A stretch of DNA of 29,941 nucleotides from a virus. A program made the translations under genes and the position numbers. Positions 4,378-29,941 of the stretch are shown here, one piece after another (position 1 is the first letter of the stretch; every line of letters starts with the position of its first letter). The stretch lies in the IMG/VR virus record IMGVR_UViG_3300030101_002139, positions 1 through 29,941 of that record, one strand, 5' to 3'. Below the pieces are notes generated by a model. It had not been told where the DNA came from and searched no databases. It saw nothing but the letters and a program-made list of their open reading frames with translations.

Positions 4378-4718
4378 TGCCCGCTTTGCTTAATATTGAT
4401 CACGATCAATTGCGAAAACTTGCAGCAATGCAATGCACCTTTGAGGAGATCGCTGCATGGTTTAACTGTTCCAGATCAACTCTATATGCTCGTGAGGATC
4501 TACGCAAAATCATAGAGCAGGAACGGTTGAAAGCACATGCAACCATGCGGCGGAATATGTTTCAATCAGCATTGGATGGCGATCGGCAAATGATGATCTG
4601 GCTAAGCAAGCAGTACCTTGGAATGCGCGAGAAAACAGAGCACTCCGGTGAGGGACTGCGACCACTGACAATTGAATTTGCAGAAGCACAACCACCAAAG
4701 GATGCTGATGAGGGTTGA
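4377..4718 (+). CDS. terS: Terminase small subunit (TerS)
   Basis: A 113-aa protein with an N-terminal helix-turn-helix (residues about 8-40: LRKLAAMQCTFEEIAAWFN, then SRSTLY), as in phage small terminases that recognise the packaging site. A central helical part (LKAHATMRRNMFQSALDGD, then MMIWLSKQYLGM) matches the usual TerS oligomerisation region, where 'W-L-K...G' type motifs occur. The start ATG overlaps the previous stop (TAATG at 4375-4379), and the 3' end overlaps the large terminase by 11 nt. Assignment rests on the HTH, size and position directly before terL. Confidence 0.8.
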   Translation: MPALLNIDHDQLRKLAAMQCTFEEIAAWFNCSRSTLYAREDLRKIIEQERLKAHATMRRNMFQSALDGDRQMMIWLSKQYLGMREKTEHSGEGLRPLTIEFAEAQPPKDADEG

Positions 4719-5991
4719 CTTGTTGCCAGCACAACTTAACTTCATCAGAGCCAAACAGCGAGAGGTGTTGTATTCGGGTGCATTTGGCGCTGGCAAGACT
4801 AGAGCGTTATGCATGAAGTTGGTTACCCGCTTGGTGGGAAACCCCGGCGCTCGTGAGGGTCTGGCACGAAAGCATCTTGTCAGTCTTAAAGCAACCACAT
4901 TGAGAACCTTGCTTGAGCAAGATGGCAAGTTGCCGCCTGTGCTTCCTGCAGGTACATATGAGCACAACAGAAGTGAACGTGTGATTAGATTATTTGGTGG
5001 CGGCAGCATCTACTACTTTGGCCTTGATGATTACGAAAAGATTGGTTCGTTGAACCTGTCCGGTTGTGCTGTTGATGAGGCTGTAGAACTTGTGCAAGGC
5101 GACTGGACCATGCTTCGTGGCCGTATACGTTTGGAACTGGATGGCTTGCCGATGCAGTTGTATGGCGCATGCAATCCCGGTGCGCCGACACACTTCCTAG
5201 CAACACGATTCGGTCTTGCGGGCGGTCATCAATGCGCTAAGAATTGTCTCGCAATACAGACTAGAAGTCCGGACAACTTCTTCTTGCCGAAGGCGTATCT
5301 TGACGATCTGATGAGTTTGGAGGGTGTGGCGTTTGAAAGATATGTTGAAGGCAAATGGCGTGGTGGCGAGGGCTTGGTATATGACCGCTTTGATCGGACT
5401 GTGCATGTGCGGGAACGCAGCGAGAATTGGCGACGAATCATTGTGGGTCAGGACGAAGGCTACACCAACCCGGCGGCACTTTTGGTTGTGGGCGAGGATG
5501 GCGACGGTCGATTGCACATCATCGAGGAGTTCTACAAGTCCCAGATGCTTGAAGTGGACGTAATCGCAACAGCGAAGGATATCGCAAGCCGATACAAAAT
5601 CGAGTCATTTGTGCTTGATCCATCAGCCGCCAAGTTGAAGGCAGCAATGCACCAATCCAACCTTGATGTGGCATCGGCTGACAATACCGTATTTCCGGGC
5701 ATACAAAAGGTGCAGCAGCGACTTGCCCGTGCTGGTGATGGTCAGCCTCGCCTGACGGTTGACCCAAAGTGCGAGAACACCATCCGTGAATTTGAATCCT
5801 ACGAATGGCTTGGTGGTTCAAGTGGCTACAAGGATGCACCGAAGAAAGAGATGGATCACGCGATGGATGCTTTGCGATATGCCGTGGTTCATTTCGATGG
5901 CAGCCGTGTCGAGCCGCGTGTGCGTGTTGCGGATAGGGCCGCAACTGGAGATAGGTTTGCCAACGATGACCGTATGTGGAGATCGCTGTAA
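4708..5991 (+). CDS. terL: Terminase large subunit (TerL)
   Basis: A 427-aa packaging motor. Walker A is SGAFGAGKT (23-31) and Walker B is AVDEA (residues 121-125), in the ATPase domain. The C-terminal RNase-H-like nuclease domain shows its acidic residues at D249 (GQDEGYTNP), D304 (VLDPSAAK) and D383/D387 (KEMDHAMDALRYAV). All key residues are present, so it should be active. Two ATGs are close together (4702 and 4708); I prefer 4708 because AAAGGA at 4696-4701 is then well spaced. It overlaps terS by 11 nt and shares a base with the portal gene (TAATG). Similarity to headful-type terminases fits a circularly permuted genome, but the packaging mode is not proven here. Confidence 0.95.
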   Translation: MRVDLLPAQLNFIRAKQREVLYSGAFGAGKTRALCMKLVTRLVGNPGAREGLARKHLVSLKATTLRTLLEQDGKLPPVLPAGTYEHNRSERVIRLFGGGSIYYFGLDDYEKIGSLNLSGCAVDEAVELVQGDWTMLRGRIRLELDGLPMQLYGACNPGAPTHFLATRFGLAGGHQCAKNCLAIQTRSPDNFFLPKAYLDDLMSLEGVAFERYVEGKWRGGEGLVYDRFDRTVHVRERSENWRRIIVGQDEGYTNPAALLVVGEDGDGRLHIIEEFYKSQMLEVDVIATAKDIASRYKIESFVLDPSAAKLKAAMHQSNLDVASADNTVFPGIQKVQQRLARAGDGQPRLTVDPKCENTIREFESYEWLGGSSGYKDAPKKEMDHAMDALRYAVVHFDGSRVEPRVRVADRAATGDRFANDDRMWRSL

Positions 5992-26540: not shown

Positions 26541-27344
26541 GTGTGCCAAGCATCTGCCGATACTACAAACGTGGACACTGCACGCATCGCAGCCATTTCA
26601 TGTAGTCACTCGCCCTTCACGAGTCCGGTGGCTCACGCAAGGCTAATGGAGTTGCTCGATGACGTTGGCCCGACGCTCACCCACTTCGTACACTGTGGCG
26701 ACCTGCTCGAAGCAGCAGCAGCCAGCGTTCACGCAGGCGAGCATGACCACACGCTTGCTGACGAGTTCGAGCATGCCAGCAACTTCTTGCGGTCGATTCG
26801 GGAAGCCTTGCCTGAGTCCTGCCGTCTGATCTGGATGAACGGCAACCATGATGACAACATATTTAAGCGTGACCCGCGCCGAATTCCGAAGGCTCTGCGT
26901 GACATGATCGAGATAGGCCGCGACTCTCGATGGCCTGAGTTCTCTCATTGGTTACAACACCCGTATGCAAAGAACCAACGTGGGCAGGTACAGATTGGGC
27001 AGGTGGTCTTCTTCCATGGCTTTGATGCCGGGCAGACTTCGGACGAACTGGAAGCGTTGCAGTTCAACAACATCACTGGCGGTCATTCTCACCGTCTGTT
27101 CGTTCGTGGTCACACCCACCGACCCGTACCGCCTACACAATGCCACCGAACCCGCAAGGTACCTTTGCCTTACTGGTTCACGAACGTCGGTACTCTTGGG
27201 CCACTTACGCCGGACTGGGCAAGCCGCATGGATACCTCTGCTTGGGGCGCAGCGTGCCTCATCGCGGAAACAAAGACCGACAGGCCAAACCGGCTCTGTG
27301 CCAAAAATTGGGACGCGGAACTTATCCGCTTTCAGGAGATATAG
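26541..27344 (+). CDS. Calcineurin-like metallophosphoesterase
   Basis: A 267-aa protein if begun at GTG 26541; GTG 26571 (then VDTARIAAIS) is an alternative. Neither has a strong ribosome site. Metal-site motifs in order: AISCSHSPF (18-26, His23), CGDLLE (52-57), GNHDD (101-105), FFHG (157-160), and GHSH/GHTH (181-184, 190-193). The usual first Asp of D-x-H is replaced by Cys or Ser here, so one metal ligand may be missing. Such phage enzymes may act on nucleotides or nucleic acid ends; the substrate is unknown. It is the first gene of the last operon, ending 3 nt before the next start. Confidence 0.85.
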   Translation: MCQASADTTNVDTARIAAISCSHSPFTSPVAHARLMELLDDVGPTLTHFVHCGDLLEAAAASVHAGEHDHTLADEFEHASNFLRSIREALPESCRLIWMNGNHDDNIFKRDPRRIPKALRDMIEIGRDSRWPEFSHWLQHPYAKNQRGQVQIGQVVFFHGFDAGQTSDELEALQFNNITGGHSHRLFVRGHTHRPVPPTQCHRTRKVPLPYWFTNVGTLGPLTPDWASRMDTSAWGAACLIAETKTDRPNRLCAKNWDAELIRFQEI

Positions 27345-27347
27345 ACC

Positions 27348-27560
27348 GTGGCTACCCATCCAAGCACCAAGTTGCAAATGACCATTCTGAAAGTGTGTAG
27401 GTACATGAGCGTGGAGTGGGACATGAGCCTGCACGAGGTTCTAGGTGCGGTTGAGCAAGCCAAACTTACTTTGTGGAATGACTGGGATAATCTGAACCCC
27501 CCAGACCTTGATTCGTTGATCGAGTTTGACGCAGACGAGGATGATGATGATGATGATTAA
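27348..27560 (+). CDS. Small acidic protein with a poly-Asp end
   Basis: A 70-aa protein from GTG 27348 with a good ribosome site (AGGAGATATAGACC). It has a helix pair (LQMTILKVCRYMSVEWDMSL; HEVLGAVEQAKLTLWNDWDN) and ends DADEDDDDDD. The acidic tail is coded by six GAT repeats at 27541-27557, which in the next frame supply the multiple Met start of the following gene. The function is unknown. Poly-Asp tails are seen in DNA mimics and Ca-binding proteins, but nothing more supports that here. Confidence 0.6.
   Translation: MATHPSTKLQMTILKVCRYMSVEWDMSLHEVLGAVEQAKLTLWNDWDNLNPPDLDSLIEFDADEDDDDDD
27537..27558 (+). repeat. GAT/ATG trinucleotide repeat shared by two genes
   Basis: Six GAT triplets encode the poly-Asp tail of the upstream gene; read one frame over they give five ATG codons at the start of the dockerin-like secreted protein. 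Copy-number changes would keep both frames but alter the Asp count and the distance from the ribosome site (GACGAGG) to the used start. Confidence 0.85.
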
Positions 27561-28599
27561 TTGCTTGCTGTCACTGATTGTTGCACAAAGCGGGCCGCCT
27601 GCGGACCCCGATTCGGTCGCCATGTGGATTGATGACCTTGGACGCTTGACACCTTTTGGTCGCACGTTTGATGTCTATATTCAAACCGGGTTTGACCCTG
27701 ACTTCTCTTATCCCAACGGTGATGCTCGCCGGCCATACATGATCGGTTGCAGCCGTGGAAATGAGTCGCCATCACGATCATTTACTTGGATGATTCAGGG
27801 TGATGTGTTTAAAAACCACAGACCTGACAGCGTCTACCCTTGGCTAGAGAACTGCCAAGAGTGCATCGACTACTGGACAATCGACACCGGCATTGAGTGT
27901 CCTGTTCCAGGTGCTTACTGGGAATGCATTCAAGCCAACCCGTACCAACGCTGGATGTATCTGGGTATGAACTTTACCCCGATCAACTGGGTGTTTGAAG
28001 GCCCACAGGGATGCTGTCCCCGGACGGCTGATTTGGTTGACCTTGAGTACGCATGGTGTGACTCGTGGATTCTGCATGGTCCGTTGGGCAAGAAGTACGG
28101 GAACTCACAGCAATACAAGTATCCGTTGGTTCAGCAACAGCACAAGGATTTAATGAGTCCTAGTCCGACACTTGGTAGGATTATTAAGTACTGGAAGCCA
28201 CAGCCCGTAGGAGAGGTTCCCGGTCAAGTCTGCTGCTCGTCTCCATCGCAGAACGACTACGGCGACCTAATCCGTTGGAACGCTGACGTTGATTGGATGA
28301 GCGAGAAGTGGCCGGGTTCGTTTCATATCGCACGGTTCACTGGTCCCGACAGGTTCGTCTCGTCTGGCGTTGTTCGCTTTGCTTGTGGCAATGACCACCC
28401 GTGCGAACCATCGCCATACCAAGTCGCGTATGATGCGGACAACTCGTGTCCGTCAGATCTGAACGAGGATGGCTTAGTGGGTTTCCAAGATTTACTGCAA
28501 GTGCTGGGTGATGTGGCTGGCTACCGATACCACTACCAAACCAGCAACGGCTTTGACGCTATTGTCAAAGTTCTGTCGGAGTGGGGCCAATGCCCGTGA
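27541..28599 (+). CDS. Secreted protein with C-terminal dockerin-like repeat (planctomycete type)
   Basis: A 352-aa protein if begun at the first ATG of the ATG run; one of the later ATGs (27547 or 27550) is better spaced from GACGAGG. After the Met run comes a hydrophobic core (INCLLSLIVAQSG) like a signal peptide, though no Arg/Lys precedes it. The main domain (30-295) is rich in Trp, Cys and Pro, with Cys-x2-Cys and Cys-Cys pairs (LENCQECIDYW; EGPQGCCPRTAD; GQVCCSSPS), probably disulphide bonded; no family recognised. Residues 303-321 (CPSDLNEDGLVGFQDLLQV) form a Ca-loop of the dockerin/EF-hand type, and the end (GFDAIVKVLSEWGQCP) looks like a partial second helix. This is a frequent C-terminus in Planctomycetota proteins. 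A surface or host-cell role is possible. Confidence 0.7.
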   Translation: MMMMMINCLLSLIVAQSGPPADPDSVAMWIDDLGRLTPFGRTFDVYIQTGFDPDFSYPNGDARRPYMIGCSRGNESPSRSFTWMIQGDVFKNHRPDSVYPWLENCQECIDYWTIDTGIECPVPGAYWECIQANPYQRWMYLGMNFTPINWVFEGPQGCCPRTADLVDLEYAWCDSWILHGPLGKKYGNSQQYKYPLVQQQHKDLMSPSPTLGRIIKYWKPQPVGEVPGQVCCSSPSQNDYGDLIRWNADVDWMSEKWPGSFHIARFTGPDRFVSSGVVRFACGNDHPCEPSPYQVAYDADNSCPSDLNEDGLVGFQDLLQVLGDVAGYRYHYQTSNGFDAIVKVLSEWGQCP

Positions 28600-28790
28600 T
28601 GCGGGTTTGCCTTGGATGCCGTAAGTGTTTGCCCGTCTCTAAATTCTTCCCCGAAAAATTAGCAATAGACGGAGTAGGTCCCTTTTGTTGGGAGTGCGTT
28701 TGCAAAAGTCAAAATAATAGACCTACGGCAACAGATCCAGTTGCAACCAGCAAAAAACACTGGACAAAGATAAAATCAAGCAATGACTAA
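28590..28790 (+). CDS. Small zinc-ribbon protein
   Basis: A 66-aa protein from ATG 28590, with GGAG 7 nt upstream; ATG 28599, overlapping the previous stop as TGATG, is the alternative. Two pairs of Cys, VCLGCRKC and CWECVC, stand 24 residues apart with the 'F-x-x-x-x-x-x-D-G-x-x-x-x-C-x-x-C' spacing seen at the N-terminus of many HNH endonucleases. The HNH core is absent, so this is a free zinc ribbon or a truncated HNH gene. The gene is AT-richer than its surroundings. Confidence 0.65.
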   Translation: MPVMRVCLGCRKCLPVSKFFPEKLAIDGVGPFCWECVCKSQNNRPTATDPVATSKKHWTKIKSSND

Positions 28791-29788: not shown

Positions 29789-29941
29789 ATGCCAGACTGG
29801 GATCCATCTAGGTTGTCTGCCGGCACGCTGACCGCGTGGTACAAGGCTGATTCTTTATCGCTGAATGATGGTGATAGCATCGCATCATGGGCTGATTCAA
29901 GCGGTAATGGAAACGATGTAGCGCAGTCTGTTGCGGTGCGT
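29789..29941 (+). CDS. LamG-like lectin adhesin (5' part; continues at base 1)
   Basis: This is the ATG and first 51 codons of the protein whose rest lies at 1-744. Starting at MPDWDPSRLSAGTLTAWYKA, it continues without interruption through the 98-bp terminal repeat. A weak upstream purine patch (GTAAGTGAT) serves as ribosome site. The first base of the window reads C where the matching base at 29843 is A (Gln versus Lys codon), a variant or an edge error. Confidence 0.8.
   Translation, partial: MPDWDPSRLSAGTLTAWYKADSLSLNDGDSIASWADSSGNGNDVAQSVAVR
29844..29941. repeat. Terminal direct repeat, right copy (circular closure)
   Basis: Right copy of the 98-bp overlap with 2-99. Removing one copy gives a genome of 29,843 bp. 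The length is near a common assembler k-mer, which favours an assembly overlap over a true short terminal repeat. Confidence 0.95.

Follow-up and report, generated by a model that had tools for sequence, protein, structure and literature searches.

P0001 encodes an accessory phage protein that evolves independently of the phage backbones carrying it and has been exchanged repeatedly among unrelated tailed phages. The protein ends in a dockerin-like tail, and sequence comparisons support GC-type dockerin tails of Phycisphaerae (Planctomycetota) as the nearest bacterial relatives of this tail, with much poorer matches in Bacteroidota. We propose, at about even confidence, that P0001 is exported and held at a Phycisphaerae-type cell surface by its host-like tail, perhaps blocking further infection.

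The P0001 gene and its genome

The window (i.e., the whole stretch of 29,941 bp analyzed) belongs to a tailed phage, with terminase, portal-MuF fusion, and capsid genes present. Its ends share an identical 97-bp repeat (3-99 = 29845-29941), and this overlap points to a circularized, probably complete phage genome of ~29.84 kb. A LamG-like gene starting at ~29789 runs over the end junction into the ORF 94-744. The P0001 gene and its first two parts are:

27547..28599, + strand: P0001, 350 aa, probably secreted accessory protein with a dockerin-like tail (from the ORF, translation, relatives, and selection); candidate starts are the ATGs at 27547/27550/27553 or the TTG at 27526 on the same strand, with the start overlapping the end of the upstream ORF
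27547..27591, + strand: probable signal peptide at the N-terminus, variable and hydrophobic in 43/43 relatives checked (from hydropathy; cleavage site inferred)
27595..28446, + strand: Cys-rich body with the core motif GRLTPFGRT...IARFTGPD, which is common to divergent paralogs

Relatives of P0001 (60-93% identical) occur in at least 95 viral contigs, the 95 loci counted being those confirmed by the tail search alone. Purifying selection on the gene is strong, with dN of ~0.03-0.1 vs. dS of 0.57 to saturation. Fourteen Cys are conserved in the family (12 in the body and two in the tail), one of them in 91% of the sequences and the rest in all. The hydrophobic N-terminus is probably a signal peptide; because it is short in some relatives, where it also lacks a basic start, we regard secretion as likely, not more.

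For the body, no match was found in Pfam, NCBIfam, PHROGs, or PDB sequences, and a whole-protein scan of ~85,000 species genomes revealed no relative of it. Library searches of Pfam, NCBIfam, and PHROGs with the complete window protein gave nothing above cut-off, and no enzyme-like family match was obtained. Full-length modeling with AlphaFold from 46 sequences gave a poor result (pLDDT 51), and the Foldseek matches of that model were without meaning. A resemblance between the body segment NDYGDLIRW...ARFTGPD and NEYGNALRW...GLFRPGG of the host protein L287 (genome G452) was dismissed as not significant in a body-only search; the L287 segment stands upstream of a dockerin.

The dockerin-like tail

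The tail comprises the following features:

28447..28596, + strand: C-terminal dockerin-like domain, C301-P350, with two invariant Cys as brackets (from alignments and the domain model)
28456..28491, + strand: calcium-loop motif D304-x-N306-x-D308-G-x-V-x-x-x-D315 (from conservation; calcium binding predicted from the motif)
28483..28518, + strand: first helix, residues 313-324 (from the AlphaFold2 domain model)
28519..28593, + strand: degenerate second repeat without a calcium loop, with a helix at 334-344 and a WGxC end (from the alignment and domain model)

Residues 301-350 of P0001 read CPSDLNEDGLVGFQDLLQVLGDV...NGFDAIVKVLSEWGQCP. Within them, DLNEDGLVGFQDLL (28456-28497) stands between CP(S) and a half-repeat that ends in WGQCP. 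The calcium-loop tail described in the initial annotation, with CP before it and WGQCP at its end, is real and lies at exactly 28447-28596. The same annotation had described a partial second repeat; a second helix is predicted there, and the corresponding calcium loop is absent throughout the P0001 family.

The loop motif is unique among the six frames of the window and appeared in 0/20,000 shuffles of the P0001 protein. Among 57 distinct viral-contig sequences, all covered copies fit the first-loop pattern D-x-[DN]-x-[DN]-G-x-[VI]-x-x-x-D and keep D304, N306 (D in two copies), D308, G309, and D315; the four predicted side-chain calcium ligands are intact in every P0001 copy that covers them. 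C301 and C349 are found in all covered copies and W346 in 55/57 sequences, and the tail has a C-terminal position, flanking Cys, and a [W/F]G-x(1,2)-C end. The two terminal Cys could close this one-loop tail. Moreover, the tail ranks among the best conserved parts of P0001 and is kept across paralogs with only ~22-37% overall identity.

An AlphaFold2 model of the domain, for which the input alignment contained dockerins, has two helices and a mean pLDDT of 90. Foldseek with this 54-aa domain model found no PDB dockerin, and the best PDB dockerin matches of the tail were weak (E about 0.02). Neither the window protein nor any of 18 tails matched NF041540 (dockerin_GC, cut-off 29 bits), which some host tails pass or come near. 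An HMM search of the tail had been suggested in the initial annotation as a check. The tail stays below the cut-off of every dockerin model in the libraries, and its closest bacterial counterparts are the Phycisphaerae GC-type tails. Given these below-cut-off matches, "dockerin-like" is apt and "dockerin" would be too strong.

Bacterial relatives of the tail and candidate hosts

A tail-only scan of ~85,000 species genomes gave 16 confirmed loci, of which 11 bear the title Phycisphaerae or that of a subordinate taxon and one bears the title Planctomycetes. The other four are two Flavobacteriales-type loci, one labelled Chryseobacterium, and one from Gemmatimonadetes; the Flavobacteriales-type and Chryseobacterium loci match the first loop only. 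A whole-protein profile, searched with no preselection, found matches essentially via the tail only: 12/198 Phycisphaerae genomes (E <= 0.1, best 4.9e-9, both halves), 37/201 genomes of one Phycisphaerae order (E <= 0.01), and 3/198 Bacteroidia (best 1.3e-3, first loop only). In profile-profile comparisons, Phycisphaerae tails reached 98.9% (E 1.2e-17) vs. 95.4% (E 1.8e-8) for Bacteroidia tails. The score of alignment A3 is biased upward because A3 contains host tails that were found through the phage tail, and the argument for Phycisphaerae is therefore carried by the unselected profile searches. These searches and the tail-only scan both favor the planctomycete, Phycisphaerae-type reading of the tail put forward in the initial annotation.

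The host tails represent the NCBIfam dockerin_GC domain, which is present in tens of copies per genome. WGxC is the common ending of Phycisphaerae tails; Bacteroidia tails end in FGxxC, as do two Phycisphaerae tails. When one host tail was used to scan viral contigs, no further phage protein carrying that tail turned up.

Through this one domain, on which the host inference is based, the sequences support, if indirectly, the view that P0001 carriers share Phycisphaerae hosts. It is very unlikely, in our judgment, that the hosts are instead Bacteroidota (marine Flavobacteriales-type bacteria, which also use GC-type dockerins). Such hosts would agree with the occurrence of dockerin_GC in some Bacteroidia (6/80 genomes) and with a Bacteroidia G+C content of ~44-47%, which is closer to that of the low-G+C carriers, but the Bacteroidia matches are weaker and confined to the first loop, their profile score is lower, and their tails have the FGxxC ending instead of WGxC. 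Base composition itself was set aside as host evidence because the carriers are spread over 37-57% G+C (several T7-like and T4-like carriers at 37-45%); most Phycisphaerales loci have 55-68%, and one marine Phycisphaerae locus has 44%.

Matching of CRISPR spacers, which the initial annotation had proposed as a test of a planctomycete host, gave no match in support of such a host among 400 genomes of one Phycisphaerae order. Searches with the window, a T7-like carrier, and a T4-like carrier yielded nothing convincing: the window query had weak matches only, all without repeat arrays, and the two other queries had short divergent or low-complexity matches only, with arrays checked for the window query alone.

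The initial annotation had also hinted that the phage hijacks a cohesin-type system, and this idea found no support, as no Pfam cohesin was recognized in 13 dockerin-bearing genomes. Among the matches listed, 15 to 87 GC-type dockerins and no Pfam cohesin were seen in G001-G007, G028, G038, G057, and G071. The cohesin result, the family-wide loss of the second calcium loop, and the position of the tail under all dockerin cut-offs would fit a reading in which the tail derives from a host dockerin, has lost its anchoring function, and is now a mere calcium- and disulphide-stabilized C-terminal cap. We consider this unlikely in view of the high conservation of the tail, which is retained in the ~22-37% identical paralogs, and of a comparable one-loop tail in the Phycisphaerales protein L141.

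A cassette exchanged among unrelated phages

P0001 is present or absent at one exact site between close relatives. Its neighbors are:

26541..27344, + strand: metallophosphoesterase-like gene upstream (92-97% identical in relatives without P0001)
27348..27560, + strand: 70-aa ORF directly before the cassette, with the left edge of the empty site at its end (27557-27561; from the empty-site comparison)
28581..28790, + strand: 69-aa Cys-rich ORF after the cassette, with a homologous ORF directly after the 70-aa ORF in P0001-less relatives

Four loci with 89-92% identical terminases are without P0001, and their neighboring genes are intact, namely, the metallophosphoesterase gene, the 70-aa ORF, and the downstream genes. 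The match to these loci stops at the final codons of the 70-aa ORF, which the next gene follows directly. Since close relatives lack exactly P0001, it represents a dispensable one-gene cassette, and this dispensability suggests a benefit in competition or niche rather than an essential step. The ORF at 28581-28790 (CLGCRKCLP...CWECVC) possibly encodes a zinc-binding protein.

That P0001 aids the late opening or release of the host envelope, together with lysis genes, seems rather improbable. The gene does have a late-gene position, with the capsid gene before it in T4-like contigs and the connector gene after it in T7-like contigs; in the window, small membrane-type genes lie near it. Against this, close relatives dispense with it while keeping the neighboring genes, and the protein matched no enzyme-like family.

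Gene neighborhoods and PHROGs matches place P0001 in at least four unrelated tailed-phage backbones. The window has an HK97/MuF-like set, and the following gene served as its backbone marker:

4672..5991, + strand: terminase large subunit (missing from 17/18 other P0001-bearing contigs tested)

The T7-like carriers have a phrog_449 connector, a phrog_38 terminase, and DNA polymerase I. The T4-like carriers have a terminase and a phrog_45 tail tube, with sheath, capsid, and UvsW named by eye, and the fourth backbone has an unrelated portal. For some contigs, an initial T4-like label was dropped in favor of a separate backbone, as their terminases are only ~21-32% identical. In a P0001 tree of 69 sequences, the backbone label changes 19 times, where three changes would be enough. 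A monophyletic origin of the copies in the window's backbone group was rejected (AU p = 1e-5 for this group), and the window copy sits in a well-supported 14-row set that mixes three backbones.

Since phages with different virions exchange the gene, P0001 is expected to affect the cell rather than the particle. The opposite case, in which it would be part of the virion surface and dock particles to cells or debris of the host, is highly doubtful. In T4-like and T7-like contigs, P0001 does lie amid structural genes, as would suit a virion protein, but one protein would then need to fit four unrelated virion types, and the signal-like hydrophobic N-terminus found in 43/43 relatives speaks against assembly in the cytoplasm.

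Two other proteins accompany P0001 in some contigs. The small cluster 2 protein occurs in 27 P0001-bearing loci, often adjacent to P0001 (L020:15172-15654, L009:11047-11499, and L024:11014-11490); its N-terminus has a membrane segment, its hydrophobic C-terminus closes with basic residues, and a search for a family match was negative. Cluster 14 is a secreted-looking phage protein adjoining P0001 (L012:11082-11711, L022:2214-2849, and L154:2824-3459), and its C-terminus is weakly PEP-CTERM-like (Pfam E 0.018, below cut-off).

Divergent paralogs

The position following the capsid gene in T4-like contigs is occupied by P0001 alone in L012, by P0001 and a second tailed protein in L231, and by two divergent paralogs (32-37% identical) and the second tailed protein in L235. 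L236 and L237 have the same gene order as L235, with no visible capsid gene. The tandem paralogs are located as follows:

L235:4018-6116, L236:4070-6135, and L237:1763-4753: two or three divergent P0001 paralogs in tandem, all with the same tail

The core GRxTPxGxT and the loop-plus-helix tail are common to all of these proteins, and the shortest member has lost the cysteines. Tentatively, P0001 may form, with three or more divergent paralog groups, an undescribed superfamily that is displayed on Phycisphaerae via a one-loop GC-dockerin tag, excludes competing phages, and moves as a cargo cassette between tailed phages that are otherwise unrelated and infect one planctomycete class.

Proposed role

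As an exchanged surface protein, P0001 would be the product of a dispensable "moron"-type phage gene and would be exported from the infected cell. Its tail would mimic the GC-type dockerin tail found on many secreted proteins of Phycisphaerae, cut down to one calcium loop, and may bind calcium and be recognized by the host machinery that retains dockerin-bearing proteins. With such a host-type surface tag, P0001 would go where the tagged proteins of the host go, presumably the cell surface. In the most speculative step, the Cys-rich body would mask or alter a surface structure. The specific function that fits best may be to exclude superinfection or to prevent progeny from adsorbing again, a suggestion that we regard as possible but doubtful.

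Comparison with known systems

In the literature searched, we found no description of phage proteins of the P0001 kind. To our knowledge, few planctomycete phages are known. Phage-ZRK32 (21.9 kb) comes from a deep-sea planctomycete in culture and is described as chronic and as carrying nitrogen-metabolism genes (PMC10945688); it was compared with the window phage by description only.

The P0001 tail resembles GC-type dockerins (NF041540) in its C-terminal position, in the first loop CPxDLNxDGxV...DLL and its helix, and in a predicted second helix ending in WGxC, with Cys at both ends. Unlike these dockerins, it has no second calcium loop, scores below threshold, and is phage-encoded, and the body attached to it is unmatched in the bacterial genomes scanned. 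The type I dockerins of cellulosomes (PF00404) share the pattern of the first calcium loop and its helix, whereas P0001 has one loop instead of two and has terminal Cys residues, and the predicted host group yielded no cohesin in the 13 genomes.

A cohesin-dockerin "planctosome" has been proposed for freshwater Nemodlikiaceae (Phycisphaerae) in a study that does not mention phages (PMC6461901). This system concerns the same bacterial class and an extracellular dockerin role beyond cellulose degradation, but the model needs cohesins, and none was found in the 13 genomes here. Ltp is a superinfection-exclusion lipoprotein encoded by a phage surface moron (PMC3952083). Like Ltp, P0001 would be an accessory phage protein on the host surface. 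Ltp has a lipid anchor, whereas P0001 would be retained via a host-type dockerin-like tail, and exclusion is only proposed for P0001.

Passed among at least four unrelated kinds of tailed phages with a host-type tail, P0001 would mark both a likely host and a shared cell-surface trick. It is a sequence marker by which viral contigs of four or more unrelated phage types, at least 95 contigs in all, are tied to a single candidate host class. It also provides a testable claim on the role of the abundant, unexplained GC-type dockerin tails of Phycisphaerae. If the tail does not anchor the protein, its conservation across very different bodies needs another cause. If the tail does anchor it, a bacterial surface-sorting tag would have been copied by phages.
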